In this document: one piece after another, positions 5,456-21,977 of the stretch
Layout: each line of letters starts with the position of its first letter
Numbering within the stretch: the stretch's first letter is position 1
IMG/VR virus record: IMGVR_UViG_3300025767_000143
Coordinates: 1-21,977 of that record
From: a virus
Direction: 5' to 3' (one strand)
Length of the DNA: 21,977 bases
The notes under the pieces: generated by a model
Databases searched by the model: none
Told to the model about the DNA's origin: nothing
The model's input: the letters and a program-made list of their open reading frames with translations, nothing else
Position numbers and translations under genes: made by a program

Positions 5456-8400
5456 TTATGATAAGAAATAATTCCATGCTTGCGGATATCCATTAATACC
5501 CACGTTAAAGTTCATTGGTGCAGTTACATCAATTGTTACGCCTGTAGGAGTAGTAATTTCTGTGCCTATTATTTTGACTTGACCAGCAGTAATACTATTT
5601 ACATTAAGTGTTGCTGCACCGCCACCAATCTGAGATGTAATATAAGTTTTAATTGCTCGCTGAGTCGGAAGTATATTATCCGAATCTGAAGCAAACGTTC
5701 CGTCTGCTGAGAATTCAGTAATTAATGCACTAGTGCCGCCAAGTGATACTGATCCTAATTGTAATTCTTGCAATCCGCTAATGTTAAATGCATCAGCATC
5801 TAGTGTTGCAATACCTGTTGATTGTTCTACACTAAACAATTCGCCAACTCTAAAGTTACCATCTTGGTCTGTACTTGTGTAAAATACTCTGCCGCCGCCT
5901 CTTTCGTAAGTTTCCTTAGTAGCGTCTGGATTAATTAATGGAATGCCTGGATAATTAGTATTTGCAAAATTTCCTGTACCAATATCTAAGAAGTCATGTC
6001 CTGTTAGACGACATTGGCTATAACGATATCTTATTGTTATACCCTCAGCATGCTCCGGCGCATCCGTAACACCAATTTCTGGACTTACTTGTAATAATGC
6101 ACTATATGGTCCAGTTCCTAATAAGTTTCTTACAGTAACTAGTTTATAATAAACATTAGATATGCCTGCAATTTCTACATTAGATCCTGCAAGAGGAACC
6201 GAAGTAAGTCCTTCTACTTGAATATACGATCCAACTTGATATTGGTCTGCATAACCATCACCTGTTGGCACAGCACTAGCAAGAGAGTAGCCTGTTCCTC
6301 TATCAGTCCAGGTTGGTTGTCCTAGAACTCCGTCTCCATATCTAACTAATGTAGGAGCTTCAACAGTATTACTAGGATCTGTAATAGTTAATGTAGGTAA
6401 ACTAGTATATCCCGAACCCGGATCAGTTATTCTAATTTCTACAATTTTTCCATCTTCAACTCTTGCTCTAGCCTTTGCAGTATCTGCATATAGGCCGCTT
6501 GGGGGTGAACTAAATGTAAGTCTTGGTTCAATTAAGTAAGAAGTACTATCGTCTAACGATGAAGATATTGCAGCGCCAGTTAAATGATCCCAGCCTGCTG
6601 TATCATCGCTCATCTTTTTAATTGTAGCAATTTTAGTTCCTGAATTATACGTGTCGATATAACCGTATTGTCCAGCGCCTAAGCCAGTAAGGATATAAAT
6701 TGCCATTCCAACAAATGCAGCACTTGTATTAGTATCTGTGTTTGATAATGTTATTTGAGTAGATGTTCCTACTTGTGCATAATTACTTGCAGTAACGTAA
6801 TCAGCGCCGCCTTGGTTGTCTGATGGATCAGTTAATCTAACTTGATAAACAGCGCCATTTTTAACTGTTGGTGAATTAATCACTGCACCTACTCCATCGC
6901 CGGAAACTACAAATTCTGTAGCATCACCGACTGTACTAACTTGGAATGTTAAATTTGGTGCACCGCCGCCGCCTAAATCCGAGTCTTGAATAGTAATAGT
7001 GTCTCCTGGAGAATGTCCACTGCCGCCTTTTACAACTTTTAACGTATTAACAAGTCCACCATCTTCGATTGTTATATCAAATTCTTGGTCAATTCCGCTT
7101 CCGTTAGATGTACCTACTAATCCGTTATAAGATCCTACAGTCCGAGATGCATCTGCTGCACCTATCGATCCTACTGTTTTAATTGCAGTAGTTGATGTAG
7201 TATAACCAACTCCTGCATTTAGATATTCAAACTGTAAAATTTCATTTCCGTCTGTAAAGATACTTTGTACTACAGCATCTGTAGAATAGTTGTCTACAGA
7301 TCCAGTAATTGGAGTTTCTGTTGAATCAACTCCTTCAGATACTGTTCCAAATGCACCATATGAAGAGTTACCGTTAGTAGCACGGATTTTACCGCCGTTT
7401 TCTGCTAAGTAACCAATATGTCCATAATATGAGAACACACTAACAAGTTCTGTTCTAGCCAAGTTAGTACACCATACTCCAATGCCGTCACTTAGTACTT
7501 GTGTAAAATCGTTAGCAACAATAGAGTCGTTGCCGCCTGCGTGTAAATCGCCATCAATTTTACAACCAACGCATCCTGTACCAAATGTTGTTACGTTTTG
7601 CACATAAGGTGATTTTGTACTAATCCACACACGATCGTCATTTGGTCCCCAACCTGGATCAAGACTTACATACGAACCTGCTGTTGGGCGCTTGGTTCCG
7701 TAAGCATTGTCTGCACCTAGTGTTCCATTTAATCCACTTACTGTGCAATTTCTTAAACCAGTTCCGTTTCTTGCATAGAACATATCTTCTAAAGTAGATC
7801 CGTTAACCGCATTAACATAATATCGGGCAGCTAATATTGCTTTATAATTGCCTGTATAATTTAAATCGTATTGTACTGCATCAATATAACGATCAATGTC
7901 TCTACGACACGAAGCTTCGTCATATACATATGCCGGATATGTAGCAGTAATAAATGCAATTACTTCATCTTTAATAAATTCTCTGTTAGCTTCAAGTACT
8001 TCAATGGCATACGTGTATTCTGTTGTAGCTACTGGAGTATTTGTTCCAACAATAGCAGGCTCTGAGCCCACTGCATTGATTTTAAAATCAATATATTCTT
8101 TAATATCAGTAACTATTCCTGCTGCTGCTGTTCCTGCCGCTGAAGAGCCTGCAGGTCTAGTAGTTACTTGTGTTTCTGATGTATTTTTTGTCCATCCAGC
8201 TGTATTATTTTCAACAATATTATCAATAAACGATGCTAAGTGTGTTATTGCTGCTAAACTATATGTAACATCGCCGGAGTCAACAAAAGATCCTCCTGCA
8301 ACAATTTTTGTTGATCTTAGTTCGTCGCCTACTACTGCTGTATTCTTTGGAATAATAATAGGTAGAATTTCATTAAATTGTCCTGTTTTAACATTAATAG

Positions 8401-10501
8401 TACTGTTAACTTGTATTTCTGCAGGAATATCTGTTGGTACAGCAGCTGTCAATGCATTAGATGTAATTTGTACTAATGCAGCAGCCGAAGCCCTAGCATC
8501 TGCTTCTTCAATATAACCTGCATTTTTATATTGTGTTATTGGCGATCCTACAGCATTTTCTGTTTGATAGTTTGTTGCTGGATCTAATTGTTGTAACACA
8601 GAATTCATTACTGTTACAGTATATACTAACGCTGCTGCTGTTTCGCCATCCTCGTCAGCAATTGCAGCAATTAATGCATTACCATCAAAATATGTTAATG
8701 CTGCTGCTCTACTTTTTTCGTTTCCGCCGTGAGTAAGGTCATAAATTACAGCATCTACAATTAACCCAACGTCCCTACGACAGGTTTCTTTAGTATATGT
8801 AAATGCACTTGTAAATGGCGCAATTTCATTTGCAATTTGATAGTCTACCCATTCAACTGTTTCTGCTTGGATAAAACTTTTATTTAAAGTTAACAGATGA
8901 GCTGCATTAGGTCTTAACGGACCTTTTTCAATTTGCTCTGCTGCATAACGAATTGTTTTAAATGGTTGATCAATTGTTCCACCGTAAGTTGGTGCTGGAC
9001 TATCGACTCCGTTTACTGGTTCAACATAAAAAATATGATTAATACTACCTAAAAATGACCATTCAGGTGCATTGCCTACTGAATTGACTTTTAATACTTG
9101 ACCTGCCTGTCCGATAGGAAGTCTTGCTGGACCTGAGCCGCCATAATATACTAAGTCGCCTGCTGTTGTAATAACCGATACTTCTGGTCCTCCTGACATA
9201 GTATTCCAGTAATCACCGTTTGTATCTTGGTCTGGTCTGTTTAGTGCTGCTATTTCATCTGATGTATGTCCTTGTACACAGACATAACTATTAACACCTG
9301 TACTAACAACATCGCCTAGCTCATATATTGTTGAGTCGGTCCATGCGTCTTTCCAAAAGAAACCACTGTTTAACTTTTCCCAGTATAGTAAATTTGGAGG
9401 AGTATTATTAAAGTTGTCTGCAATACATATATAAGTAAATCCATTAAGTCTAACTACGTCACCTACTTCGTATGCATAATCACTACTATCTTCAGCCCAA
9501 TCACCTAAAAATTTAAATCCAGTATTAAATAATTCCCAATCATCAGGGTTTACTGTAGGTTTGGCCTGTCTATGTATTGTTTTAGAAACATAAGTATATC
9601 CACCGTATGATACTATATCGCCAGGTTGATATCTTGTATCATTATTCCAGCTATCTTCAAATTCTAATCCGGGAACAAAAATAGACCAGTTACTTTCGTC
9701 TGTTTCAAATTCTAATGTACTAGTATGCGGTGATGTGCAAATCCAAAGGTCCCCGCCCCATTTTACAATGTCATTAATTTTATAACGAGTAGGAGTATAA
9801 GTCCAGTCGCCTAAATAAACAATACCTTTGTGTAAGTATTCCCAGTCTGGCTGATTAGCTTCTAAACCGCTTGTAATTGTTGCTGCTGAAGTATGTCCAT
9901 TAATATTAACATATAACTGGCCGCCATATCTTACAACGTCATTTGCTTTATATCGTGTATTTACTGTCCATTCATCTTTCCAATCAAAACCTGAGGAAAA
10001 TAAATTCCATTTTGCAATATCAATTTCGAGACCGATTGCAGCATCACTATTACTAGTATGGGCTTCTGTACACAAGTACACTAATGCTCCGTACTTTACT
10101 AGATCATTTATTTTATATCTAGTAGATACTTGCCAATCTGCTTGGTAGTCAAAACCTTCTGCAAATAAATCCCAAAGTAGTTGATCAGCTTCTAGTCCAG
10201 CAGATGATGTTACAGCCGATGTATGTTCTGTGTTTGCAATATAAAGATATCCGCCATATTTTACAATGTCATTATCATAATATAACGTACTAGTTGTCCA
10301 GTCTCCGCGCCATTTTTGGCCGTCAGTCATTTTGTTCCATTTATCAGCATCTTGTAAAAACTGAGGAGAACTAGTATGTCCTGCTGTGCAAACATACGTA
10401 ATGCCGCCAGCACGAACAATATCATCTTTGTAATATACAGTGTTGGTAGCCCAGTCGTCCTTAAAAACAAATCTAATTCTACCTAGTTTAAATTCAGCCA
10501 T
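5456..10501 (-). CDS. Giant tail-fibre-like protein, 8 W/Y/HTS repeats and interrupted beta-helix (1681 aa)
   Basis: N-terminus MAEFKLGRIRF matches its paralogue at 10535-15214 (MANFKLDRIRF) and is probably the particle anchor. Residues about 13-445 hold eight units of about 50 aa of the form W-x5-Y-x3-DIV-x-YGG-x-x-Y-x5-HTS-x(n)-W, resembling chitin-binding CBM5/12-like modules. A linker (ARLPIGQAGQVLKV) leads to a pectate-lyase-like beta-helix from about 490 to 1065 (IFYVEPVNG, PFKTIRYAAEQI, AVVGDELRST, KSPYVQNVTTFGTGC). The helix is interrupted by two helical modules, each with a CRRD motif (about 571 and 864). Beta-rich repeats (GSGYTSLPTLTI) follow, then TDQDGNFRVGELF near 1550 and a C-terminal PTQRAIKTYITSQIGGG segment. 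A late-promoter-like box lies just upstream, with aaagg at 10511-10515. Most likely a long virion fibre or baseplate-attached adhesin. No catalytic site is recognisable. Confidence 0.85.
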   Translation of the reverse strand: MAEFKLGRIRFVFKDDWATNTVYYKDDIVRAGGITYVCTAGHTSSPQFLQDADKWNKMTDGQKWRGDWTTSTLYYDNDIVKYGGYLYIANTEHTSAVTSSAGLEADQLLWDLFAEGFDYQADWQVSTRYKINDLVKYGALVYLCTEAHTSNSDAAIGLEIDIAKWNLFSSGFDWKDEWTVNTRYKANDVVRYGGQLYVNINGHTSAATITSGLEANQPDWEYLHKGIVYLGDWTYTPTRYKINDIVKWGGDLWICTSPHTSTLEFETDESNWSIFVPGLEFEDSWNNDTRYQPGDIVSYGGYTYVSKTIHRQAKPTVNPDDWELFNTGFKFLGDWAEDSSDYAYEVGDVVRLNGFTYICIADNFNNTPPNLLYWEKLNSGFFWKDAWTDSTIYELGDVVSTGVNSYVCVQGHTSDEIAALNRPDQDTNGDYWNTMSGGPEVSVITTAGDLVYYGGSGPARLPIGQAGQVLKVNSVGNAPEWSFLGSINHIFYVEPVNGVDSPAPTYGGTIDQPFKTIRYAAEQIEKGPLRPNAAHLLTLNKSFIQAETVEWVDYQIANEIAPFTSAFTYTKETCRRDVGLIVDAVIYDLTHGGNEKSRAAALTYFDGNALIAAIADEDGETAAALVYTVTVMNSVLQQLDPATNYQTENAVGSPITQYKNAGYIEEADARASAAALVQITSNALTAAVPTDIPAEIQVNSTINVKTGQFNEILPIIIPKNTAVVGDELRSTKIVAGGSFVDSGDVTYSLAAITHLASFIDNIVENNTAGWTKNTSETQVTTRPAGSSAAGTAAAGIVTDIKEYIDFKINAVGSEPAIVGTNTPVATTEYTYAIEVLEANREFIKDEVIAFITATYPAYVYDEASCRRDIDRYIDAVQYDLNYTGNYKAILAARYYVNAVNGSTLEDMFYARNGTGLRNCTVSGLNGTLGADNAYGTKRPTAGSYVSLDPGWGPNDDRVWISTKSPYVQNVTTFGTGCVGCKIDGDLHAGGNDSIVANDFTQVLSDGIGVWCTNLARTELVSVFSYYGHIGYLAENGGKIRATNGNSSYGAFGTVSEGVDSTETPITGSVDNYSTDAVVQSIFTDGNEILQFEYLNAGVGYTTSTTAIKTVGSIGAADASRTVGSYNGLVGTSNGSGIDQEFDITIEDGGLVNTLKVVKGGSGHSPGDTITIQDSDLGGGGAPNLTFQVSTVGDATEFVVSGDGVGAVINSPTVKNGAVYQVRLTDPSDNQGGADYVTASNYAQVGTSTQITLSNTDTNTSAAFVGMAIYILTGLGAGQYGYIDTYNSGTKIATIKKMSDDTAGWDHLTGAAISSSLDDSTSYLIEPRLTFSSPPSGLYADTAKARARVEDGKIVEIRITDPGSGYTSLPTLTITDPSNTVEAPTLVRYGDGVLGQPTWTDRGTGYSLASAVPTGDGYADQYQVGSYIQVEGLTSVPLAGSNVEIAGISNVYYKLVTVRNLLGTGPYSALLQVSPEIGVTDAPEHAEGITIRYRYSQCRLTGHDFLDIGTGNFANTNYPGIPLINPDATKETYERGGGRVFYTSTDQDGNFRVGELFSVEQSTGIATLDADAFNISGLQELQLGSVSLGGTSALITEFSADGTFASDSDNILPTQRAIKTYITSQIGGGAATLNVNSITAGQVKIIGTEITTPTGVTIDVTAPMNFNVGINGYPQAWNYFLS
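9190..10465 (-). repeat. Eight tandem ~50-aa W/Y/HTS coding repeats (1681-aa protein)
   Basis: Protein-level repeats beginning DDWATNTVYYKDDIV, DWTTSTLYYDNDIV, DWQVSTRYKINDLV, EWTVNTRYKANDVV, DWTYTPTRYKINDIV, SWNNDTRYQPGDIV, DWAEDSSDYAYEVGDVV and AWTDSTIYELGDVV. Each has a Y/W-C-x-x-x-HTS-like middle (degenerate in units 6 and 7) and a closing Trp. DNA identity between units is low, so the array is old. Confidence 0.9.
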
Positions 10502-10519
10502 GTTGCAGTTCCTTTAATA

Positions 10520-10527
10520 TATTTATC
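10520..10527 (-). promoter_or_regulatory. T4-type late promoter box GATAAATA (1681-aa gene)
   Basis: GATAAATA on the - strand in the 33-bp gap before the 1681-aa gene. With the usual late-promoter geometry the transcript would start at about 10514, inside the aaagg ribosome site at 10511-10515. The leader would be only about 13 nt, which is tight, so the exact start may lie a few bases earlier. Confidence 0.62.
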
Positions 10528-10534
10528 ATATTCT

Positions 10535-13500
10535 TTATTTAAACATTGCACGAGCTAACATAGAGCCTGCAATACCCTTCTTAAAGTTTATTGTTCTGTT
10601 TACTTGAATAGTACTTCCACCTGTTGTACTAAATGTATTACCGGTAACTTGTACTTCACCAGCAATTAATGTATTTGTCGAAACATTTGATGTTCCGCCG
10701 CCCAGCCTACTTTCAATATAAATTTTAACTGCACGTTGCGTTGGAATAATGTTATTAGAGTTAGCAATAAAGGCGCCATCTTTAGAAAATTCTCTAACAA
10801 CAACTGCTGTTCCGCCTACTTGAATCCCGCCCAATGTTAATTCCGTTAGACCATTAAGTTCGAAATAACTAGCATTAATACTTACAATACCTGTTCTTTG
10901 TTGCACTTCAAATAGCTCGCCGACTCTAAAGTTACCATCTTGGTCTGTACTTGTGTAGAATACTCTGCCACCACCTGCTTCAACAACTTCGTTTGCAGGT
11001 TTAGGATCATTAACTCCTTGATATCCAATTACATATAAACCAGGATAATTTGTTTCTAATGCATTACCTGTGCCAATATCTAAGAAATCATGACCTGTTA
11101 ATCTTACTTGACTATATCGTTGTCTAATAATCATACTAGTTGAATGATCAGGAGATTCTGCTCTATCAATAGTTGGTGAAACTGTTAATGTTGCTGCATA
11201 ATTTCCTAATGACCCTGTTGGAGTAGTAAATGACACAACTCTATATGTTACATCATCAATGCCGTCGATAACTAAGTTATCTCCTGGTCCAGGAATTCTA
11301 CTCATATTAGATACAATAAGGTCGCCGCCGATTTGGTAAGAATCTGCTAATCCGTTTCCAGTTATAGAAATTTTAGCAGATGCATATTCTGTTCCTCTGT
11401 TAGTAAATCTAGGTTGCGGTAATACCCCAGAATTAGTTCTTGGCGTAAATGTAGCATCTACTGTATTATTAGGATCAACTAAAGCAATTCCCATACTATC
11501 ATCGGTGTATCCGCTACCTGGCTCGTAGATATGAAACTCTTTTATTCTACTTGAATCGACTATTGCACGTATCAACGGCTTAGCTCCAGTAGTTAACACA
11601 TCGATATTAGATTGCGATGATTGGTTTGCTAAGAATCTTGCTCCATTATCAGATTCTCCAGCAGCAAAAGTTGTATATCCGCCGGTTCTAAAAAGAGTTT
11701 TGATAGTACTATCTTCCATTTCAGATGACCATACGTATCCACTGTTCGACATACTAACAACATTTGTAGTTGATGTTATTGCTGCAAAAGTTCCTTGGCT
11801 ATATTCAACCTTAGACCATGCACTATTTGTATCTTCATCAATTGATGAAGAATACCAAGTAACGCCATCGAAACTATACATTCTAACGTCACTGCCGTTT
11901 TGTACAGCAACAAATCTATTATTACCATACGCAATCGATGTCCAATTTCCGCTCGGTACAGTAACACTTGTCCAAGAAGTACCGTCAGTTGATGATGATG
12001 CTGTGCCGCCGCTTTTTATAGCAATAAACTTGCCTGAACCATATGCAATATCTGTATGCTGACTTGACGGTAATGCTCCGCCTGCTGTCCAAGTATCACC
12101 TTGATTGTCGGAATATGCAACGTTTGTGCCGCCGCTTGGACCGCCAGCAATTACTACTAATCGAGAACCATTATATGCTCCTGCTGTCCAATAATCAGTT
12201 GCTGGCATAGTTTCTGATGCCCACGAAGAGCCGTTACTGGTTCTTGCAATAGAATTAGTATTTTGCGTAGATTGTAAAAATATAGCACTGCTGTCTGCAG
12301 ATGCTACACTAGTCCATGTTCCTGCTGGTATTGTTATAGAATTCCATGTTGTTCCGCCGTTAGTTGATAATCCGCCGGCTGTTCCGCCTGCTTGTGCGCC
12401 AACCCATGTATTACCACCTAACCAAGCAACTGCTCCGAATATAGTAGGAGTAATATTATTAGTTACATTAAATATAGGTTCGTCAACTGATACTCGTGTT
12501 TCGATTGAGTATCTAGTTGTAGCATCTAACACCGGTGCTAGTGGATATCCAGGATATAAATGGTCCCAGCCCTGTTTTCCATCTGATTCTCTAGACACAA
12601 TAAGGTCTTTTGATACTGCATTATATCCAGTTATTACACCATACTGTCCTACACCAGTACCTTGTGTAATAATAATCCGCAGTCCTTCAAATGCAGCAAT
12701 AGTATTATTATCAGCAACAGATATTCTAATTCCTAATTCGTCGCCTCCTTGAGCATAGTTAACTATTTGTCCGTAATTAATGCCGCCGGCTACACTTGAA
12801 TCGCCTGGATCTGTTAGTCTTAATTCCGAAATGCCACCTTTTCTAAATTCATCGTACACTACTGTTGCATCTGCGCCAGGTCCTGAAACAGTTCCAGATG
12901 CTGTAGAGTATCCTAGTCCTGCATTACTGTAACCTAAAGTAATTAACTGATTACTATTTGTGAATACTTGAACTACATTTGCTGGTTTGCTTCGATTATT
13001 TACTACTGCTGTAATAGGAGTTTCTGTTGAATCAAATCCTTCAGCAACCGATCCATATGTACCATAAGAGTTATTGCCGTTAGTACCTCGAAGTTTGCCG
13101 CCGTCGGTTGACAAATAACCTATATGGCAGTAGTATGTAAATACAGAAACAAGTTCCGATAATGCATTGTTAGATGCCCAATAACCAATTCCGTCTGGAA
13201 TAATTTGTGTAAAATCGTTTGCAACAATTGACTTAGTTCCGCCATTGTGTAAAGATCCGTCAATTCTCATTCCAACACACCCTGTACCAAACGTTGATAC
13301 GTTTTGTACGTATGGAGATTTAGAAGTAATGTGTACACTAGCATCATCAGGGCCTGTGCCCGGATCCAGTGATACAAATGCTCCAGCAGATGGTCTTCTT
13401 GTTAGAAATTGATTTGGTGCTCCGAGTGTTCCACTTAATCCTTGCAGTGTACAATTTCTTAGTCCGCCGCCGTTTCTTACATAAAACATATTTGCTGTTT

Positions 13501-15214
13501 CGTGTCCGACTTGAGGAGTAACTATTGTACTTCTTAATTCATCACCTACTACTGCTACATCTGCTGGAATTGATATTGGTAGTATTTCTTCGTAAATTCC
13601 AGTTTTAACATATATAGTTGCCGGTGCTCTTGCAGCTTCGTCAGCTAATATATAATCACACGCATATTTAATTGTTCTAAAAGGTGCTGATATTGTTTTG
13701 CCACTTGAGTCGGAATCAGTGCCTTCTATTGATACATAATAAACTTTAGTAGCTAAGTCGTGATTTTCCCAAGATATTGCAGTTTCTAAATCGTTAACTT
13801 TTAGAACAGTGCCTTGAACTCCGACAGGCAAGTCAACAATATCTGTACCGTTGTGTGTTCTAAGATCGCCTCTATCTACTAAAACGTTATCAGCTGATCC
13901 ACCAACTTTTATAACCCAGTTTGTTCCTGCGCCTGCTACATCGCTCTTAGGATTTTCGCCAGTGTGTTGCTGTAATGCACTATATGCAGTTCCTGCATAC
14001 ACTGCAATATCACCCGGAAAGTAAAGTCTTGTGACATTCCAATCTCCTATATATTGGTTACCTGTAATTAATACTTGCCAGTTAACTGTAGATGTAGGAT
14101 ATACTCCTGCTGCATGATCAGTTCTCGCAACGTAAACATATCCATTGTTTCTGACAACATCGCCTGTTTTATAATCAGAATCTACTGACCAATCACCTAC
14201 AAATTTGTAAGAGGCTATTAATAATTCCCAATCGCCAGTATCTTGTAATATACCATTTACTGAAGGAACACTGCCGATATTATTTGTTAGTGCAGTATAT
14301 ATGTAGCCGCCATATTGTACAATATCACCTTTTTGGTATTGTACAAGAGTAGACCAACTTGCTTCATAACTTAGGCCTGGAAGCCATAATTCCCAGTTTG
14401 TTACTTGATCATCGTTTGCTAATTCATCATCTATAGATGTATGAGTTGTTATACATCTCCATAAAGAAGGACCGTATTTAACAATATCACCTACACGATA
14501 GTATGTAACATTAGCATAATCTTCTTTATATTCTAAACCCGAAATAACAACTTCCCATTTTGAAAGATTATCTTCTATGTTCAGTGTACTTGTATGGCCT
14601 TCAATACAACGATATACAGACCCATTATATCTTACAATATCATCTTTTACATATCTATTTAAATTTACAAGATCGCCCTTCCAAAAATCAGAAACTGTTA
14701 CAAGTGTCCAAGAACTTTGATCGTCTTCAAGTCCAAGTACAGTAGTAGTTGTTGACTGATGTTTAGTATTACAAACATAAACATTACCATTGTATCTTAC
14801 TACGTCACCAAGCTCGTAATATGTTAGTATTGTCCATTCGTTTAACCAGTTGTCTGTAGTAGCAAGTATAGCCCAGTAAATTGCGTCTCCAGTTAGTCCT
14901 GTTTGTATAACTGCGTTAGAAGTGTGCGGAAAAATACATTTATATATGTATCCATTCCATTTTACAATATCATGCTCGTCGTAATATGTATTAATTTGCC
15001 AAGGGCCGTCCCATACACTTCCGGTTTGCATAATTTCCCATTTTGGAACTATATCAAGTTTATCAAGATAAAAATCAGCATTAGAGGTATGCCCAACAAG
15101 ACAAACATAAACTGTGCCTTGATAATATACTACATCGTCTTTGGTATATTGTGTTTCTGTGGCCCAAATATTTTGCCATCTAAATCTAATTCTGTCTAAT
15201 TTAAAATTTGCCAT
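10535..15214 (-). CDS. Giant tail-fibre-like protein, 8 W/Y/HTS repeats, beta-helix and inserted Asp-box propeller (1559 aa)
   Basis: Paralogue of the 1681-aa protein. After the MANFKLDRIRF anchor, residues about 14-450 hold eight W/Y/HTS modules. A linker (DIVDLPVGVQGTVLKV) leads to a beta-helix at about 490-740 (KVYYVSIEGTDSD, PFRTIKYACDYIL, IYEEILPISIPAD, KSPYVQNVSTFGTGC). Unlike the paralogue, this helix is uninterrupted. Residues about 920-1205 insert six Asp-box blades (STNGGTTWN, TSNGSSWA, SDNQGDTWT, SSTDGTSWT, SFDGVTWY, SNSGYVWS), a sialidase/BNR-type propeller. The shared scaffold then resumes (GSGYTDD, TDQDGNFRVGELF near 1425, PTQRAVKIYIESRLGGG). Its ribosome site GGAAG lies within the 3' end of the 127-aa gene, 5 bp upstream, implying coupled translation. 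No sialidase catalytic Arg triad is evident, so a binding role is preferred. Probably a virion adhesin. Confidence 0.85.
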   Translation of the reverse strand: MANFKLDRIRFRWQNIWATETQYTKDDVVYYQGTVYVCLVGHTSNADFYLDKLDIVPKWEIMQTGSVWDGPWQINTYYDEHDIVKWNGYIYKCIFPHTSNAVIQTGLTGDAIYWAILATTDNWLNEWTILTYYELGDVVRYNGNVYVCNTKHQSTTTTVLGLEDDQSSWTLVTVSDFWKGDLVNLNRYVKDDIVRYNGSVYRCIEGHTSTLNIEDNLSKWEVVISGLEYKEDYANVTYYRVGDIVKYGPSLWRCITTHTSIDDELANDDQVTNWELWLPGLSYEASWSTLVQYQKGDIVQYGGYIYTALTNNIGSVPSVNGILQDTGDWELLIASYKFVGDWSVDSDYKTGDVVRNNGYVYVARTDHAAGVYPTSTVNWQVLITGNQYIGDWNVTRLYFPGDIAVYAGTAYSALQQHTGENPKSDVAGAGTNWVIKVGGSADNVLVDRGDLRTHNGTDIVDLPVGVQGTVLKVNDLETAISWENHDLATKVYYVSIEGTDSDSSGKTISAPFRTIKYACDYILADEAARAPATIYVKTGIYEEILPISIPADVAVVGDELRSTIVTPQVGHETANMFYVRNGGGLRNCTLQGLSGTLGAPNQFLTRRPSAGAFVSLDPGTGPDDASVHITSKSPYVQNVSTFGTGCVGMRIDGSLHNGGTKSIVANDFTQIIPDGIGYWASNNALSELVSVFTYYCHIGYLSTDGGKLRGTNGNNSYGTYGSVAEGFDSTETPITAVVNNRSKPANVVQVFTNSNQLITLGYSNAGLGYSTASGTVSGPGADATVVYDEFRKGGISELRLTDPGDSSVAGGINYGQIVNYAQGGDELGIRISVADNNTIAAFEGLRIIITQGTGVGQYGVITGYNAVSKDLIVSRESDGKQGWDHLYPGYPLAPVLDATTRYSIETRVSVDEPIFNVTNNITPTIFGAVAWLGGNTWVGAQAGGTAGGLSTNGGTTWNSITIPAGTWTSVASADSSAIFLQSTQNTNSIARTSNGSSWASETMPATDYWTAGAYNGSRLVVIAGGPSGGTNVAYSDNQGDTWTAGGALPSSQHTDIAYGSGKFIAIKSGGTASSSTDGTSWTSVTVPSGNWTSIAYGNNRFVAVQNGSDVRMYSFDGVTWYSSSIDEDTNSAWSKVEYSQGTFAAITSTTNVVSMSNSGYVWSSEMEDSTIKTLFRTGGYTTFAAGESDNGARFLANQSSQSNIDVLTTGAKPLIRAIVDSSRIKEFHIYEPGSGYTDDSMGIALVDPNNTVDATFTPRTNSGVLPQPRFTNRGTEYASAKISITGNGLADSYQIGGDLIVSNMSRIPGPGDNLVIDGIDDVTYRVVSFTTPTGSLGNYAATLTVSPTIDRAESPDHSTSMIIRQRYSQVRLTGHDFLDIGTGNALETNYPGLYVIGYQGVNDPKPANEVVEAGGGRVFYTSTDQDGNFRVGELFEVQQRTGIVSINASYFELNGLTELTLGGIQVGGTAVVVREFSKDGAFIANSNNIIPTQRAVKIYIESRLGGGTSNVSTNTLIAGEVQVTGNTFSTTGGSTIQVNRTINFKKGIAGSMLARAMFK
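13895..15172 (-). repeat. Eight tandem ~50-aa W/Y/HTS coding repeats (1559-aa protein)
   Basis: Units begin IWATETQYTKDDVV, PWQINTYYDEHDIV, EWTILTYYELGDVV, DLVNLNRYVKDDIV, DYANVTYYRVGDIV, SWSTLVQYQKGDIV, DWSVDSDYKTGDVV and DWNVTRLYFPGDIA. The HTS motif is clear in units 1, 2, 4 and 5, varied in 3 and 8 (HQS, HTG), and lost in 6 and 7. The count equals that of the paralogue, so the array predates the gene duplication or has been kept at eight. Confidence 0.9.
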
Positions 15215-15219
15215 TTTTA

Positions 15220-15603
15220 TTAACTTCCGTAATTATTGCCTGCAGATGAATCATTATCATCATACGTATATTTGTGATTAATTCTAGCAACTAGCTCGCC
15301 TTCATCATTAACATAGTACCATATATTTTTTGTATCCCATCGATATTGTTCATAATTTAAATTATCGTAAACTAAATTATGATTAACATCTCTTCCTTCA
15401 GTAAAATCTTGTCCTTCAACAAAATCAGGATAGTTCTGTGTTGTGTCACCCGGGTTGTTAATTGTTAAACTATCGGTTTTTGACATTTGGTCTACTTTAC
15501 CAAGAAATAATTCTCCGTGATCTGTTCTACGTAATCCGTAAAAATATCGATCTTTAAGTGTAGACATCATGTCTTCAATACTTGTACCTGTGTAACTACT
15601 CAT
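15220..15603 (-). CDS. Conserved-looking phage protein of unknown function (127 aa)
   Basis: A 127-aa soluble, acidic, aromatic-rich protein. It starts MSSYTGTSIEDMMSTLKDRYFYGLR and ends with a serine/asparagine-rich tail (DDNDSSAGNNYGS). A helical N-terminus is followed by a Tyr/Trp-rich beta region (YEQYRWDTKNIWYYVND, GELVARINHKY). I do not recognise a family. GGGA at 15611-15614 precedes the ATG by seven bases. The gene ends 5 bp before the 1559-aa gene and carries that gene's ribosome site. Being locked in a structural operon suggests a small tail, baseplate or fibre-joining part, by context only. Confidence 0.72.
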   Translation of the reverse strand: MSSYTGTSIEDMMSTLKDRYFYGLRRTDHGELFLGKVDQMSKTDSLTINNPGDTTQNYPDFVEGQDFTEGRDVNHNLVYDNLNYEQYRWDTKNIWYYVNDEGELVARINHKYTYDDNDSSAGNNYGS

Positions 15604-15614
15604 AACCTTTTCCC

Positions 15615-15944
15615 TTATACAATATCTACATAACTAATTACTGCATCAATTGAATCATCTTCATCTGACGAAATATATAACTGATTAGACGGTGAAAGTA
15701 TTATTTTTTCGCCGCCGCTAAGTGCCTTTAAACTACCATGTGGTGGAATCATAACATCTTTAATAAAATAACCATGTACACTATCAGAGTCTTTTATTGT
15801 GACACTTGCATACACTACTGATTCTGTTAAATTTGATAACTGTAGTCCAATAATAGTAGAGCGTGTACCTGCACCAGTTTCGATTGCAAGTACTGGCAAT
15901 TCTCCTATGTCTTTTAATATTTTATTTTCAAATGTTGTTGCCAT
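15615..15944 (-). CDS. Small beta-rich virion-type protein of unknown function (109 aa)
   Basis: A 109-aa protein with alternating beta strands (RSTIIGLQLSNLTE, VVYASVTIKDSD, GEKIILSPSNQLYISSDE, AVISYVDIV) and a PPHGSLKALSGG turn. It resembles the 106-aa protein at 5120-5440 in length, strand pattern and the N-x-LxxxSS segment, so it is a probable distant paralogue. The AGGA ribosome site at 15951-15954 overlaps the last codons of the 1121-aa gene, whose stop lies 3 bp before this ATG, so translation is coupled. Likely a small virion or fibre-associated protein. No enzymatic motif is seen. Confidence 0.72.
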   Translation of the reverse strand: MATTFENKILKDIGELPVLAIETGAGTRSTIIGLQLSNLTESVVYASVTIKDSDSVHGYFIKDVMIPPHGSLKALSGGEKIILSPSNQLYISSDEDDSIDAVISYVDIV

Positions 15945-15947
15945 GTT

Positions 15948-18900
15948 TTATCCTAAAACTAATATATATTCTAATACTAAATTTTCAGCTGCGTTATAAG
16001 TAATAGCACCTGATGATCCAGCAACTGAAACCCAAGATGTACCATTAAATATTTCTAAGTATTGCTGGTTAGTATTAAATCTTGTCATTCCTACTTCTCT
16101 GTATGGTGGAATAGGCCTCTCAAGATCCGTTCCACTTGGTACTATAAACGCTCCTGTTCCTTCAATCTTTACATATCCTGTTCCGGAATTTCTAAAATAA
16201 GTTGTTCCATTATTTTGAGTATTAGTTATCGAATTACCTTTAAAAGATAAATTATCAATAGCAACACTGCCTATTCCATTACCAGTAAGATTTAAATCAG
16301 TATTGGGTGTTATAGTACTTATTAAATTTCCGTCAATACCGATATCATCAACTTCTATTCTATCTGATCTCAATCTATTAGAATCTATATCTGCTACCAA
16401 TGAGCCATCTGCATAGAATCTAATAGTATTATCGTTAGCACCCGGAGTTAATTCTGATGTAATGTATGTGTTTAAATCTAAATCATACACACCGTTTAAT
16501 GCGATCCAGTTTCCGTCATATCCTTCAAATAGATTATTATCGGTATTATATCTTATCATACCGTTAACAGGCGAAGCTGGACGCTCTGCTGTTGTGCCTG
16601 TAGGTAAATTCAGTGCGCCGGTTGACTGGACACGTAAGGTTCCGCTATCTGCATTAAGTATTATGTCGCCACTTAAACTTTCAATAGTATTTCCGCTAAT
16701 GCGTAAATTTCCAGTGTCAATTTTTTCACCGGTAATAGTTGTTTGACTACCACCTGTATTAATTGTTACTCCGTCTTGTGTAGTAATATTAACTGCACTT
16801 GAACTAAACGACACAGTGCCATCTTCTTGACTTACATGAAATAAGTCACCGACTCTAAAGTCACCTTTGTGATCAACACTATTATATCTTACTTGAGCAT
16901 TGTTAGTTTCTACTACTTCATTTGCTTGTATAATAGTCAACGGATCATTAGTTGTAGATTTTCCATTACCTATATATGCCATATTATGGCTAACTGCATA
17001 CATAATAACGCCCGGACCGTCTCCGACTAATCCATAATTGCCGTACACACTTGCACTACCTATTAATCTTATTTCTGCACCAAAATCTGTTTGATCTGCT
17101 AATGTAACATATGTAGCTGTAGCGCCATTACTAAAACGTAAATCTTGCGCATTAACAATATCGTCAATAATGTTCGTAGACCCGTCAGATATATTATTAA
17201 AGTGTAATAATAATTTAGTATCTGTGTCGCCTGTAAATTGAGATGTTATCGGTGTAAAGGCTACTGTATATCTTGCTAATCCTTTCGTAACTCTAAACTC
17301 ATCTACATATCCGTCTAATTTATTTGCAGCGTCCCATCTTGCGCCGATTATTAAAGGTTTTGCAATTCCGTAATCCACTGGCGATACTGTCCAAGTGCCT
17401 TCTAATGTGCCGTCTAAAAATAGTCTTGTGTTGCTTCCGTCACGACTAACTGCAATATGATACCATTGTCCTGTTGTTAGTGTTGTACCTGTGATTCTAT
17501 CTGCACTGTAAGAATAAAAACGTAATTCGCCGCCGGCATCAATATAAACTAGTGGTGCAACATCTGATCCTGCACCTGCTCTAAAATCAAATAAATTTGT
17601 TGTAGCAGCTACGCTATTAAAATAAAACCATCCTTCTACAGTATAATTTCCTGTTCCAAATCCAAAATCATTGTTACTACCTACACCAATATAATCAGTA
17701 GTACCATTAAGTTCTAAACTACTAGTTCCAAACTTTTTAATCGTAGTATCTGTTGTTGGTGTTCCGTATTTGTTTACAACCTTGCCCCCTCGGGCAGTAG
17801 CAGTTACTAATCCTGTTAAATTTCCGTTTACATAAAACTTGTTGTCGGCGTCAACACTATCAATAGTGCCCGTTGCAATAACTGTAGTACCGTCCGTATC
17901 GTAATATGTAAATGTATTTCCAGCAGTAATCGATCCGCCGGTTAATCCATCTACCCTTACTGCTGTTTTACCTGTACCTTTTAAGCCAGTAGTTCCGTCA
18001 AATGCATATATCGACCTATTAGCAAAGTATGTAAATGAGTTTAACCACTCAACTCTAGCTCCGTTAGTTACTGTAATAGAATCTACACCCGGAGTAATAA
18101 AAGTAGCTGCGTGGAAAAGCATTGAAGCTTCATTGCTGTTAGAAATTGCAGTTGCTCCGTCAATGTATGCGCCTTTGCCAGCATCACCTTGGTTAAAACC
18201 TCGAGGGTCACTAGAGCTTGTAACACTTCCTTGTGTAATAACACTTACATTTTTAATATAAGGAGATCGATTAGTTGTTCCTGATACTGTAAAACCCGGA
18301 GCAAACTTAAATGCATATCCTGTATTATCGATACTATTATAATAAAATTGTCTAACAGTTAGTTCTTCAATTGTTGTGCTGCCGGTTAACAAAAATGCAT
18401 CATTATTTTGTGTCGCAACTGTTGGTTCTATGTTTACACTTCTTAAATTATGTCCTTTAACTGTAACTCCTGCTGGCACAGTTATTGGAAAAATTTCTTC
18501 ATATACGCCCGGATAAATGTGAACTGTATCACCTTCTGATGCATTTTCTACTGCATGTTTGATTGTAAGAAACGGATCGTTTGGATGTGTTCCAGAATGC
18601 GTGTCGTCGCCGTTTTCTGCAACATAGAATAAATTTCCTTGGCGTAGATTTAGATCAACTCCGTCAACTATTAACGAAGCTGCATTGATAGTATCTACAG
18701 TAAGATTGTTTACCCAAACATCATTCCATCTCTGAGTTGATGATCCTAAAGCAAATGTGTCAGTAGTGTTAGGAATAATATCAGAATTTATATCTGCATT
18801 AAATTCTACATTATCTGTATCAGCATCACCTAATGTAATATTACCGTCTGAAGTGATATTTCCTGTTGCTACAATATCACCGTATACATTTGTATCTGAA

Positions 18901-19313
18901 AATATTTCTACTGTGCCGGTTGCATTAGGACGGAACTCTAAATTAGTATTTGACGAATTAGTACTAATAACATTATTTTCTATATCAATACTATCAACAG
19001 TTAGTTTATTTTGGTATACAACAGAATCGTTAGTTCCTAAAGTTAATACAGGGTTAGTTGTACTAACTGTTGAACCTGTTATTGTAACATCTGCAATAGT
19101 TGCTGTGTTTGTTACATTAAGAAATGTAGATTTAGTTGTGCCGTTTACGTCTAGGTCGTATAAAGGTGTATTAGTGTTTATACCAACACGTTGTGCAGTG
19201 TCACCCGGTTTGGTAACTTTTAGATATAATAGGTCGTTCTCAAATGCCAGATCAACTCCGTTACGAAGTAAATTCGACTTCAAGAGCGGACCACTAATGC
19301 GACCTATAGCCAT
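15948..19313 (-). CDS. Tail-fibre-like protein with beta-helix and inserted LamG/ConA-like lectin domain (1121 aa)
   Basis: N-terminus AIGRISGPLLKSNLLRNGVD matches the neighbouring paralogue at 19449-21977 and is a likely common anchor. It is followed by RVGINTNTPLYDLDVNGT and a repeated beta region (GNITSDGNITLGD, NSDIIPNTTDTFALGSS). A beta-helix starts at about 228 (LFYVAENGDDTHSG, IYPGVYEEIFPITVPAG). Residues about 445-738 are absent from the paralogue and hold a LamG-type fold: FGTSSLELNGTTDYIGVG, NYTVEGWFYFN, GQWYHIAVSRDGSNTRLFLD, LDGYVDEFRVTKGLARY and TKLLLHFN. The scaffold resumes with ASVYGNYGLVGDG and DHKGDFRVGDLF. Two LPTGT-x-ERP-x-x-P...RYNT modules close the protein. AGGAG at 19319-19323 sits five bases before the ATG. 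Probably a virion adhesin binding surface glycans; the ligand is unknown. Confidence 0.85.
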   Translation of the reverse strand: MAIGRISGPLLKSNLLRNGVDLAFENDLLYLKVTKPGDTAQRVGINTNTPLYDLDVNGTTKSTFLNVTNTATIADVTITGSTVSTTNPVLTLGTNDSVVYQNKLTVDSIDIENNVISTNSSNTNLEFRPNATGTVEIFSDTNVYGDIVATGNITSDGNITLGDADTDNVEFNADINSDIIPNTTDTFALGSSTQRWNDVWVNNLTVDTINAASLIVDGVDLNLRQGNLFYVAENGDDTHSGTHPNDPFLTIKHAVENASEGDTVHIYPGVYEEIFPITVPAGVTVKGHNLRSVNIEPTVATQNNDAFLLTGSTTIEELTVRQFYYNSIDNTGYAFKFAPGFTVSGTTNRSPYIKNVSVITQGSVTSSSDPRGFNQGDAGKGAYIDGATAISNSNEASMLFHAATFITPGVDSITVTNGARVEWLNSFTYFANRSIYAFDGTTGLKGTGKTAVRVDGLTGGSITAGNTFTYYDTDGTTVIATGTIDSVDADNKFYVNGNLTGLVTATARGGKVVNKYGTPTTDTTIKKFGTSSLELNGTTDYIGVGSNNDFGFGTGNYTVEGWFYFNSVAATTNLFDFRAGAGSDVAPLVYIDAGGELRFYSYSADRITGTTLTTGQWYHIAVSRDGSNTRLFLDGTLEGTWTVSPVDYGIAKPLIIGARWDAANKLDGYVDEFRVTKGLARYTVAFTPITSQFTGDTDTKLLLHFNNISDGSTNIIDDIVNAQDLRFSNGATATYVTLADQTDFGAEIRLIGSASVYGNYGLVGDGPGVIMYAVSHNMAYIGNGKSTTNDPLTIIQANEVVETNNAQVRYNSVDHKGDFRVGDLFHVSQEDGTVSFSSSAVNITTQDGVTINTGGSQTTITGEKIDTGNLRISGNTIESLSGDIILNADSGTLRVQSTGALNLPTGTTAERPASPVNGMIRYNTDNNLFEGYDGNWIALNGVYDLDLNTYITSELTPGANDNTIRFYADGSLVADIDSNRLRSDRIEVDDIGIDGNLISTITPNTDLNLTGNGIGSVAIDNLSFKGNSITNTQNNGTTYFRNSGTGYVKIEGTGAFIVPSGTDLERPIPPYREVGMTRFNTNQQYLEIFNGTSWVSVAGSSGAITYNAAENLVLEYILVLG

Positions 19314-19424
19314 CTTTGCTCCTCAATACGGGGATCCTGTCCCTCTAGCCAAATTTTCAGCCTTTCGGCTCTTTGCTGGTTAACCACAGTTTGACCCTGT
19401 AAAACAATAGTCGCGTTTTACATT
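19314..19424 (-). promoter_or_regulatory. Hairpin-rich 5' leader of the 1121-aa gene
   Basis: This gap has no gene. Read on the - strand after the late box it holds, in order: a 7-bp stem GTAAAAC/GTTTTAC (19421-19415 with 19405-19399, 9-nt loop); the palindrome TGGTTAACCA (19377-19386); AGCC-GAAA-GGCT with a GNRA loop (19359-19370); a second GGCT (19347-19350) able to compete for the same AGCC; GGGA/TCCC (19343-19340 with 19334-19331); and then AGGAG. The other two leaders in the cassette are far shorter. It may stabilise the mRNA or tune translation; it matches no riboswitch class I know. Confidence 0.5.
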
Positions 19425-19429
19425 AATAG

Positions 19430-19437
19430 TATTTATC
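19430..19437 (-). promoter_or_regulatory. T4-type late promoter box GATAAATA (1121-aa gene)
   Basis: GATAAATA on the - strand, 11 bp after the stop of the upstream fibre gene and 116 bp before the 1121-aa start codon. It is identical to the boxes at 5108-5115 and 10520-10527. It would drive the 1121-, 109-, 127- and 1559-aa genes, which have no other box between them. Confidence 0.7.
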
Positions 19438-19448
19438 GTTTTTGAGGA

Positions 19449-21977
19449 TTATCCTAGTACAAGGACATACAAATCAAGTAGATCGTTAATAACTTCTTCG
19501 GTTACTTGTTGTTCACTTTCGCCTGAACTTCTAATCCAAAAACTACCGTTGTATATTTCTAGATAATCATTTTGTGTATTCCAACGAGTGTGCCCTAATT
19601 GAGGATCAATAGGTCGTTGGTCAACAGTGCCATATGGAATTATAAGTCCTGTTGCCATATCAAAACTTACATGGCCGCCGCTGCCTGTAGTTACAAGCGA
19701 AAGATTATTATTTGATGTATTTTCAATTATAGTTGCATCAAATTTTAAATTATCAATTATAACAGATCCGTTACCATTTGGTGTAATTGTAACATCTGAA
19801 TCAATTGTAGTAGGCGTAATTAAATTATTATCAAACAGAATATTGTTTGATGCTAGTCCATTTAATTCCATATTTCCAGAAGATATTCTTCCAGTTTCGA
19901 TAGCATTAGCCGTGAATACTAAATTTCCAAGAATATTATTAGCATTTATATTTGTTTGCCTGTCTTCACTATACACACCATTAAATGATATATTAGCAGA
20001 ACTATAACCTTCATATGCATTTAGCTCACTATTATACCGAATATCACTTTCTTCATTCATTCTTTCTAAACTGGTACCTGTTGGTAATATAAAAGAAGGA
20101 TTACTAGTTATATCTATTTTATTAGTTACTGGCGATAATATTAAGTCACCGTCAATCGTCATTATTTCATTTCCAGAAAATCTTATATTTCCTGTATCAA
20201 CTTTCTCTCCGTCAATATAGGTAATATTACCGTTAGTATTAATAAATATTGCACTAACATCAGTTAAGTCAACTTGCTCAGTGTCAAAGCTAGTTGTACC
20301 GTCATCAAAATTTGCAAAAAATGCATCACCTACTTTAAAAGTTCCTGTTTGATCAGAAGATACATAATATATTTTTCCTAAATTTAATTCAACTACTTCT
20401 TGATCTAATAATGCTAAAGTTTTGTCGTTACTAACGTCTTTGCCTGTGCCAATATAAGCAAAGTTATGACCTATTAGATACATTAGTGTATTGGCACCGT
20501 CTGCTACTGTGCCGTAGTTACCGTATACGTTAGCCGAACCAATTGATCTTAGTTCTGCACCATACCGAATAGATGTGTCTGGCATTAGTTTACCAGATGC
20601 CCCTTGTGTTGCATACAATCCTCTATTAGCAAAGTATGTAAACGAATTAAGCCATTCTACTCTTACACCGTTTGTCATTGTAATACAATCAACACCGGGA
20701 GTAATAAATGTACAACTGTGAAATAACATACTTGCTTCTAAACTTGCACTGTCTAATGCTGCGCCGTCAATTAATGCACCTTTGCCAGCATCTGCTGCAT
20801 TAAACCCTCCAGGATCACTTTCACTAGTAACACTGCCTCTAGTAATTACAGTTACATTTCTAATATATGGTGACCGTGTACTTACTAATCCGTTTGCTGT
20901 AAATTGGAATGCATATCCATTATAAAAATCTTTAATTGTAATATTTTGGATAGTAACATCATCTTCTAAATAAAATGCATCATTATTTTGGGTAGATAAT
21001 GTAGGTTTAATAATAACATTCCTTAAATCTTCGCCAACAATGTCTGTATAGGAAGGAACTGTTAAAGGAAACTCTTCTTCGTAAACTCCTGGATATACGT
21101 GTATAACAGTTGGACCAGCTGTGCTTCCATCAACTTGATCAAGGGCATGCTTTATTGTGCGGAATGCACCGTGTTGATGATCACCTACATTTGTATCACT
21201 TCCTAATGTGCTTACATAAAAAATATTTCCTTGGCGAGTTTCAAATGTAGTCGTATTACTACCTATTGAGTTTGTTGTTAGGTTTTGTCCGTTAATTAAA
21301 TTAGTATACAAAACATTCCATTTTTTCAACGGAGTACCTAAAGAATTTGTATCAGTAACATTAGGTAAAATATCACTATTTACATCTGCTTCAAATGTAA
21401 CATTATCATCGTCACTGTCACCGAATACAATGTTACCGTTAAATGTAATATTTCCAGTTGCATGCAAATTACCAGTTATATTTGTATTTGAAAATATTTC
21501 TAATGACCCTGTTGGATTTATTTCTAAATTTGCAGAGTTTTTTGTAAAAATAGCATTATCGTTAATTAATATATCATCTGTAGATAATGTCGAAACTTGA
21601 ATATTTGAAGCAGCATTTAAATATAAAGGAAATGAATTAGCAGTTATATCTCCTTCTGATATACTAATAGAATTAATATCAGCCTGTGTTGGTAAAATTA
21701 TGTTAGTGGTACCTATTTGAGTACCTACATGCAATTGTTCGGTTGGATTATCTATATTAATGCCAACATTGCGTCCTAAAGATTCCGGAGTATATGCAGG
21801 GTCGCCGTCTCCTGGCCAGTCTGGATCGTTAGCATTAACTCCGGAAGGACTGCCTTGTATTATATCAAAATTTGTACTGTCAAGCTTTAAATATAGTAGA
21901 TTTGAGTCAAATGCTAAATCTACACCATTCCGTAAAAGATTATCTTTTAATAGTAAACCGCCTATACGACCGTTTTG
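19449..21977 (-). CDS. Tail-fibre-like protein with beta-helix (at least 843 aa, start just beyond window)
   Basis: The frame stays open to the last base; the in-frame TTG at 21734 is internal. The visible N-terminus (NGRIGGLLLKDNLLRNGVD) aligns with residues near the start of the 1121-aa protein, so only a few codons are missing. Layout: anchor; VGINIDNPTEQLHVGT; repeated strands (GNITFNGNIVFGD, NSDILPNVTDTNSLGT); a pectate-lyase-like beta-helix from about residue 252 (IFYVSTLGSDTN, VYPGVYEEEFPLTVPS, RSPYIRNVTVITRGS); then SANVYGNYGTVADG, SDQTGTFKVGDAFF and two PTGT/PYGT...R modules. It lacks the roughly 290-residue LamG segment of its paralogue, whose length difference (about 278 aa) fits that one insertion. 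It ends LYVLVLG, similar to the other's YILVLG. Probably the basic form of this fibre family; no catalytic residues are recognisable. Confidence 0.83.
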   Translation of the reverse strand, partial: QNGRIGGLLLKDNLLRNGVDLAFDSNLLYLKLDSTNFDIIQGSPSGVNANDPDWPGDGDPAYTPESLGRNVGINIDNPTEQLHVGTQIGTTNIILPTQADINSISISEGDITANSFPLYLNAASNIQVSTLSTDDILINDNAIFTKNSANLEINPTGSLEIFSNTNITGNLHATGNITFNGNIVFGDSDDDNVTFEADVNSDILPNVTDTNSLGTPLKKWNVLYTNLINGQNLTTNSIGSNTTTFETRQGNIFYVSTLGSDTNVGDHQHGAFRTIKHALDQVDGSTAGPTVIHVYPGVYEEEFPLTVPSYTDIVGEDLRNVIIKPTLSTQNNDAFYLEDDVTIQNITIKDFYNGYAFQFTANGLVSTRSPYIRNVTVITRGSVTSESDPGGFNAADAGKGALIDGAALDSASLEASMLFHSCTFITPGVDCITMTNGVRVEWLNSFTYFANRGLYATQGASGKLMPDTSIRYGAELRSIGSANVYGNYGTVADGANTLMYLIGHNFAYIGTGKDVSNDKTLALLDQEVVELNLGKIYYVSSDQTGTFKVGDAFFANFDDGTTSFDTEQVDLTDVSAIFINTNGNITYIDGEKVDTGNIRFSGNEIMTIDGDLILSPVTNKIDITSNPSFILPTGTSLERMNEESDIRYNSELNAYEGYSSANISFNGVYSEDRQTNINANNILGNLVFTANAIETGRISSGNMELNGLASNNILFDNNLITPTTIDSDVTITPNGNGSVIIDNLKFDATIIENTSNNNLSLVTTGSGGHVSFDMATGLIIPYGTVDQRPIDPQLGHTRWNTQNDYLEIYNGSFWIRSSGESEQQVTEEVINDLLDLYVLVLG

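Follow-up and report, generated by a model that had tools for sequence, protein, structure and literature searches.

We analysed a linear IMG/VR fragment of 21,977 bases (virus record IMGVR_UViG_3300025767_000143, hereafter the window), most of which is taken up by an array of fibre genes whose open reading frames (ORFs) fill positions 5456-21977. The four large proteins of this array, designated P1 to P4, are the subject of what follows, together with the domains inserted into them and, in the case of P1, two helical modules related to phycobiliproteins, the cyanobacterial pigment proteins that carry bilins.

5456-10501, minus strand: P1, giant fibre protein of 1681 amino acids (aa) (ORF; match to a PHROG tail fiber protein, E 2e-202)
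10535-15214, minus strand: P2, giant fibre protein of 1559 aa, paralogue of P1 (ORF and pairwise alignment)
15948-19313, minus strand: P3, fibre protein of 1121 aa (ORF; PHROG match)
19449-21977, minus strand: P4, fibre protein of at least 842 aa, whose 5' end lies beyond the contig and which has no large insert (ORF)

Four fibre genes on a shared scaffold

A reading made earlier from the sequence alone had placed all four proteins on one chassis, and this is what we find. The motif that opens the beta-helix (YV..G-D..F-x-T-I-K/R) occurs once per protein, at residues 492, 493, 230 and 254 of P1, P2, P3 and P4, respectively. A second motif is likewise present in one copy each (FNEILPI in P1, YEEILPI in P2, YEEIFPI in P3 and YEEEFPL in P4), as is that of a shared C-terminal module (FRVGELF in P1 and P2, FRVGDLF in P3 and FKVGDAF in P4). 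The division into two pairs by their N-termini is also borne out, with P1 and P2 having in common eight CBM_5_12 repeats and P3 and P4 the motif GRI..LLRNGVDLAF. Both pairs can be aligned end to end, interrupted by discrete gaps, and P4 is 47% identical to P3 across the N-terminal half (blastp). Homology extends across the pairs over the beta-helix core, where P2 and P4 match by blastp with E 4e-15 and where hhalign comparison of the two scaffold families gives a probability of 99.9 and E 3.2e-33, with reversed-profile controls at E 0.3 or worse. The C-terminal F-R/K-VG-D/E module is 31% identical across pairs over 80 columns; its own hhalign score is weak, and it is also linked between P2 and P3 by blastp (E 2.5e-5). 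The shared parts are located as follows.

12935-13753, minus strand: shared beta-helix core of P2, residues 488-760 (hhalign against the P3/P4 family)
17979-18641, minus strand: beta-helix core of P3, residues 225-445 (AlphaFold2 model, fold matches)
20568-21233, minus strand: beta-helix core of P4, residues 249-470 (identity to P3; hhalign)
5834-5854, minus strand: FRVGELF motif of P1, shared C-terminal module (motif search)
10910-10930, minus strand: FRVGELF motif of P2 (motif search)
16839-16859, minus strand: FRVGDLF motif of P3 (motif search)
20319-20339, minus strand: FKVGDAF motif of P4 (motif search)
9200-10468, minus strand: eight CBM5/12-type repeats of P1, residues 12-434 (PF02839, 124.9 bits against a cut-off of 26.2)
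13910-15181, minus strand: eight CBM5/12-type repeats of P2, residues 12-435 (PF02839, 134.1 bits)

AlphaFold2 (AF2) models were built as monomers on orthologue alignments, that of P1 spanning residues 488-1681, and in both pairs the core is predicted to be a right-handed beta-helix and not a set of unrelated folds, with tailspike- and pectate-lyase-type matches at Z 15-20. Residues 225-445 of P3 have a predicted local distance difference test score (pLDDT) of ~90 over most of their length and match lyase and tailspike beta-helices at Z 17-20, and the best fold match of the P1 fragment model is the tailspike of cyanophage Pam1 (Z 18.4). When PDB sequences were searched, the whole P1-fragment alignment as query gave no matches and the whole P3 alignment gave weak tailspike matches and nothing else. 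The CBM5/12 repeats of P1 and P2 are in register and retain HTS and the final Trp in most cases, and carbohydrate-binding-type domains in series make up the N-terminal 'anchor' of this pair. The four-gene tail-fibre array is best explained by a single beta-helix fibre protein that was duplicated in two rounds, and P1-P4 may form trimers, as tail fibres or tail spikes.

The names carried by database relatives suggest another identity for P3 and P4, whose best PHROG matches are called 'baseplate wedge subunit' and whose relatives in P-HM1 and ACG-2014f are annotated as gp7. We regard this baseplate identity as highly improbable and set it aside, since two or three such 'gp7' genes are found in one genome, T4 gp7 is reported to be absent from cyano- and pelagimyophages (PMC7029224), and the fold matches are to tailspikes and lyase-type beta-helices. 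The gp7 name of the P3/P4 family looks wrong.

Inserts at fixed sites and their exchange

Within each pair the proteins differ mainly by discrete inserts, as the sequence-only reading had described, with LamG in P3, an Asp-box propeller in P2, two helical CRRD modules in P1 and no large insert in P4. Beyond that description we find a GSGY module in P1 and a small beta domain that surrounds LamG in P3, in addition to the CBM array of the 'anchor' and the phycobiliprotein-like character of the CRRD modules.

17082-17993, minus strand: nested insert of P3, residues 441-744, a small beta domain enclosing LamG (alignments)
17286-17708, minus strand: LamG / concanavalin-A-like lectin domain of P3 (PF13385, E 3.4e-21, 76 bits against a cut-off of 27.6)
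11630-12469, minus strand: Asp-box beta-propeller insert of P2, residues 916-1195 (six Asp-box-like boxes spaced by 39-43 aa)
6929-7177, minus strand: GSGY-type beta module of P1, ~90 aa, residues 1109-1191 (many sites in relatives)

The LamG domain of P3 is predicted to form a jelly roll that matches pentraxin, PAPP-A and AbnA domain 4 at Z ~18. Botulinum-type lectin matches were rejected, as they reflect no more than the jelly-roll fold common to lectin domains.

Relatives were obtained by scanning IMG/VR with P1, P3 and P4, which yielded ~75 loci and ~45 contigs with syntenic order (a scan of IMG/VR with P0002 gave no confirmed relatives). We aligned 60 P1/P2-type and 50 P3/P4-type orthologues and tabulated stretches of at least 40 residues between scaffold columns. 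Of 26 P3 orthologues, 15 have LamG at its site and the other 11 have a homologous spacer of 49 aa, P4 orthologues have no insert there, and L012, the nearest relative of the window by P3 scaffold, is without LamG. The P2 propeller site is occupied in 29 orthologues, 27 of them clearly by one family and two by different sequences of 319-361 aa; it is empty in six (L006, L017, L020, L047, L052 and L056) and is also occupied in two P1 orthologues. Nearly all P1 proteins have the helical CRRD module at two sites, and it also occurs in the P2 of seven contigs; the GSGY module (~90 aa) occurs at numerous differing sites, and the number of CBM repeats is nearly constant at 7-8. Relatives do not carry identical inserts throughout: the minimum number of changes on the scaffold trees is three for LamG/spacer, four for the propeller, three for one CBM-loop insert and one for the CRRD module in P2.

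The identity of the inserts tracks that of the scaffolds loosely, where simple inheritance would predict that both move together. The LamG of the window is 81-84% identical to those of L007, L017, L047 and L020, whose scaffolds are 64-69% identical. P2 propellers are 33% identical between L014 and L030 on scaffolds that are 79% identical, 36% between L007 and L037 on 79%, and 67% between L014 and L037 on 69%, and in sliding windows the drop in identity is limited to the propeller, with both flanks recovering. With support of 99/94 and 100/98, the LamG tree puts the window together with L020 within the L007 group; in the scaffold tree the window lies outside it. Approximately unbiased (AU) tests reject the LamG groupings with the scaffold data at p 0.0035 and 9e-5, values that are somewhat optimistic because the groups were named after the LamG tree was seen; the AU test in the opposite direction gave p 0.10, which is not significant. 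These patterns indicate that LamG and propeller alleles are exchanged between scaffolds by recombination. Across the ~45 syntenic contigs, gene order and scaffolds are stable, and inserts at fixed sites (LamG, propeller, GSGY and CBM-loop) are gained, lost and exchanged. The modular swapping proposed earlier stands as turnover on a conserved chassis and not as free movement of modules from gene to gene. Within this lineage LamG is confined to the P3 site, and the propeller is found almost only in P2, plus the P1 of two contigs.

We propose that the CBM repeats, LamG and the propeller may touch surface glycans, so that recombination would re-tune adsorption, and it is plausible that a virion has several putative receptor specificities. 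The earlier view of the inserts as binding domains would fit LamG and the propeller, which are of carbohydrate-binding type, and not the helical inserts of P1, which are not evident binding domains and are relatives of bilin-binding globins. Alternatively, the inserts might not be adhesins, and the CBM repeats, the beta-helix and the inserts could mainly set the length, stability and assembly of the fibre, with turnover being neutral, and the nearly fixed, ruler-like number of CBM repeats and the tendency of inserts toward the same tolerant loop of the CBM repeat would fit such a role. We consider it unlikely, as LamG, Asp-box and CBM5/12 are carbohydrate-binding-type folds, and as the scaffold diverges more slowly than the inserts, which also pass from one background to another, as would be expected of parts that interact with the host.

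Three further observations concern the relatives. The foreign modules in their CBM5/12 repeats lie in the same loop, from HTS to the closing Trp, at eight of nine sites. Some P4/P3 orthologues (L048 at 6587-10240, L011, L064, L066, L067, L069 and L070) have big N-terminal or mid-protein expansions, which are repeats of the scaffold's own beta repeat and reach up to 980 aa after P4 residue 617. In L058, L059 and L061 two ORFs (674 aa, then at least 473 aa) stand at the position of P1, which is apparently split or truncated.

The helical modules of P1

The two helical inserts of P1 are the following.

8402-8953, minus strand: helical module 1, residues 517-700, within the beta-helix, with CRRD (574-577) at 8771-8782 (AF2 model, fold, profiles)
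7793-8284, minus strand: helical module 2, residues 740-903, with CRRD (865-868) at 7898-7909 (homologous to module 1, E 1.5e-18)

In the AF2 model they are two helical domains between beta-helix strands, with pLDDT 80-95 over the inserts, and the non-beta-helix fold matches of this model are phycobiliproteins. The predicted fold of module 1 matches phycoerythrin beta chains, with Foldseek probabilities reaching 1.00; over 138 residues the match has Z 14.8 at 2.8 A. Matches of helical bundles below Z 13 can arise by chance, and sequence evidence was therefore sought. When the profile of module 2 was searched against all PDB sequences, the top matches were phycocyanin alpha chains (E 0.2-0.5), aligned at C-x-R-D, and the profile of module 1 alone gave no matches to PDB sequences. 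The cores of 53 modules of the window lineage, compared with 70 alpha/beta phycobiliproteins taken from cyanobacterial genomes, gave an hhalign probability of 89.6, E 1.9e-6 and a score of 41.6, with reversed and column-shuffled controls scoring 11-21.

Homologues of the modules are found in 296 phage records; all but one, a marine virus, bear the label Synechococcus, Prochlorococcus or cyanophage. A set of 39 unselected full-length cyanophage modules matched phycobiliproteins with E 1.2e-8, and ten shuffles gave nothing. A profile of 21 cyanophage modules searched against 177,635 PDB sequences found almost only phycobiliproteins, the best being C-phycocyanin alpha (E 2.4e-5), and one S-CAM1 module alone scored 25.6 bits with PF00502, for which the curated cut-off is 22.2. 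Since the modules of the window lineage and those of cyanophages are homologous (E 3.4e-26), the window profile, the cyanophage profile and this homology form a chain that assigns the window modules to the phycobiliprotein superfamily. By profile comparison and predicted fold, both helical domains of P1 share ancestry with phycobiliproteins and bilin-binding globins.

Homology is qualified by the Pfam scan, where single modules of the window lineage gave nothing significant, the window's own falling below the PF00502 cut-off; for the window modules, kinship with phycobiliproteins is supported by profiles, by intermediate sequences and by fold. A convergent resemblance, in which a generic helical bundle acquired CxRD by chance, could appeal to the short sequence-matched core (~65-75 residues), to fold scores that are inflated for helical bundles, and to pairwise E-values that are single comparisons picked after the fold search. 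We find convergence very unlikely in view of the almost exclusive return of phycobiliproteins by the unbiased PDB scan, the module that exceeds the Pfam cut-off by itself, the coincidence of motif and helix order, and actual scores of 42-51 against 10-21 for reversed and shuffled controls. A role as a light-harvesting phycobilisome subunit was rejected, as the modules are inserts in a 1681-aa fibre protein and not stand-alone alpha/beta subunits. Homology to phycobiliproteins and BBAG globins takes in the predicted helical globin-like fold, C-x-R-D and the sequence itself; the phage modules differ in being inserts or tandem repeats in fibres, with no known partner subunits and a bilin that is putative.

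Module 2 (7793-8284) has ~120 residues before the Cys and ~35 after it, and its first half shows a very weak match to the C-terminal helix of phycocyanin alpha. It may represent a circularly permuted or split phycobiliprotein fold.

The CRRD of both P1 modules is a C-x-R-D motif, which profile alignment places on Cys84 of phycocyanin alpha. In phycobiliproteins the Cys of this motif bonds the bilin and the Arg and Asp contact it, and BBAG globins need no lyase to bind bilins (PMC10151467). All 25 P1 proteins that bear modules keep one or more C-x-R-D motifs, a copy lost from one module being retained in another, and this retention is seen against a cysteine content of only 0.46%. In an unbiased count, 33 of the 39 full-length cyanophage modules have the motif and six do not; alignment A8 was built from modules chosen for CxRD, and its invariant columns are biased. 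Moreover, seven cyanophages with cpeT were examined, and in six of them this gene, which encodes a T-type bilin lyase, lies 1.3-3.4 kb upstream of a multi-module giant tail gene and on the same strand; such closeness at a random position has a chance of ~1-5% per genome. These represent six genera (S-WAM2, S-CAM1, S-RIM32, Syn1, S-CAM4 and S-PM2; records L164, which is S-WAM2, L165-L167, L170 and L171) that share synteny, and the adjacency may therefore be one evolutionary event. In phage Sf-CH3, pcyA (21305-21790) is found ~2 kb before a module (23952).

The P1 modules might accordingly be read in two ways, as carrying a covalently bound bilin or as bilin-free structural or recognition modules. 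Retention of the motif, the adjacency of cpeT in relatives and, by analogy, the lyase-free binding by BBAG globins speak for a bilin, which we consider possible, if on the whole doubtful. Several observations weigh against it. C-x-R-D is lost in all seven P2 module copies, and the fold can therefore persist without the motif. In 26 contigs of the window lineage we found neither heme oxygenase nor bilin reductase, and neither CpeT nor psbA, a negative that is not conclusive because all of these contigs are fragments. In P-HM1, the exception to the adjacency, cpeT is 35 kb away, and P-SSM2 and Mosig carry FDBR (bilin reductase) genes, yet are without modules. These three phages do not fit a simple bilin-gene rule, and the association of modules with FDBR among isolates is not tight. 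The lack of C-x-R-D in the P2 copies and in six of the 39 cyanophage modules, together with the bilin genes not found in the fragmentary contigs, would be expected if the modules descend from bilin-binding globins and are now bilin-free, with C-x-R-D kept for helix capping or packing and the modules acting as spacers, trimer contacts or recognition domains. We give this second possibility somewhat better than an even chance, even though no module-bearing P1 is without the motif, despite losses elsewhere and despite so little cysteine, and even though cpeT adjoins module-bearing tail genes in six cyanophage genera.

Several cyanomyoviruses adsorb in a light-dependent manner, and the reason for cpeT and bilin reductases in T4-like cyanophages, even those on Prochlorococcus without standard phycobilisomes, has been called unclear (PMC2984593), as the reason for hemO/pcyX in phages of non-phototrophs has been left open (PMC11480375). 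Modules with intact motifs in fibres bear on all three matters, and a bound bilin, if present, would connect light-dependent adsorption with the unexplained phage bilin genes (PMC2984593; PMC11480375). Taken further, the fibres of many cyanophages and of the window phage might have bilin-loaded modules, loaded by phage CpeT where present, such that ho1, pcyA/pebS and cpeT would partly serve to pigment the virion. This extension is slightly less probable than the bilin itself and is offered tentatively; a pigmented virion could have a light sensor behind light-dependent adsorption, or a photoprotective or receptor-mimicking element.

Related arrays and neighbouring genes

The same two scaffold types are found in Kyanoviridae, in the polymorphic membrane protein of S-CAM1, PSSM2_301 of P-SSM2, Mosig_00063, PHM1_095 of P-HM1 and gp267-269 of ACG-2014f. 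They have CBM5/12 repeats, and P-HM1 as well as two neighbouring paralogues of ACG-2014f have LamG at the same site; in the latter (L082, 22916-35303) these are adjacent genes named 'baseplate wedge', each with LamG at the scaffold site of the window's P3. The regions examined in these genomes differ in that they contain either a single protein of the first type or between one and three of the second; the CBM repeats number 5-6, and a propeller is absent. In the window each scaffold type is present in duplicate within an array of four, which in relatives is downstream of gp23. A hypervariable host recognition region is already known in pelagi- and cyanomyophages (PMC7029224; PMC3909814), and its host recognition cluster is likewise a hypervariable tail-fibre region with adhesin-like domains; the variation described in that work (PMC7029224) is at the level of genes, and in the window lineage we see turnover of domains on a conserved four-gene scaffold.

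Phage CBA120 (Ackermannviridae) has four adjacent beta-helix spike genes, each spike having its own receptor and lyase domain. The likeness lies in the four beta-helix genes, with TSP2 of this set being among the top fold matches, and the difference is that the four proteins of the window have a common chassis and differ by inserts. Modular fibres in general are already known. What is new is an array of four copies in which the exchange of domains is documented, and the recognition that a helical module widespread in fibres is phycobiliprotein-like; our literature search, whose scope excluded subscription papers and preprints, found no report of phycobiliprotein-like domains in phage structural proteins. 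Modular fibre evolution becomes legible at the domain level, with a fixed scaffold, fixed sites, exchanged cassettes and four copies per genome. We consider it highly probable overall that the window represents a T4-like phage with a four-gene fibre array that combines a shared scaffold, turnover of inserts and phycobiliprotein-like modules in P1.

The assignment as T4-like follows from relatives with longer upstream sequence, in which the fibre array follows genes for a portal, a head protease and the capsid protein gp23 (PF07068); megablast of the whole window against phages gave zero matches. On the minus strand the order begins with P4 and P3, followed by two small ORFs and then by P2 and P1; after these come a 106-aa ORF, an Ig-like/glycine-rich protein, which is probably a further adhesin, and a chaperone.

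15615-15944, minus strand: conserved ORF of 109 aa between P3 and P2 (same spot in nearly all relatives)
15220-15603, minus strand: conserved ORF of 127 aa between P3 and P2, phrog_8997 (same spot in nearly all relatives)
5120-5440, minus strand: conserved ORF of 106 aa after P1, tail-fibre-like (phrog_11338, E 1.6e-12)
3301-5082, minus strand: Ig-like plus glycine-rich protein of 593 aa (PF05345; phrog_4474)
2701-3276, minus strand: tail-fibre assembly chaperone (PF16778, E 2.7e-10)

The gp23 of relative L049 (4880-6061) is closest to those of the jumbo phages Vibrio phage 2.275.O, Phosso, GAP32 and PA5oct (65-69% identity) and is not nearest to cyanophages, whereas the fibres look cyanophage-like. 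Finally, tandem 2OG-Fe(II)-oxygenase-like genes in the window (1683-2189 and 2176-2688) share an 80-base stretch that is 95% identical, the rest having diverged, which suggests recent gene conversion between them.

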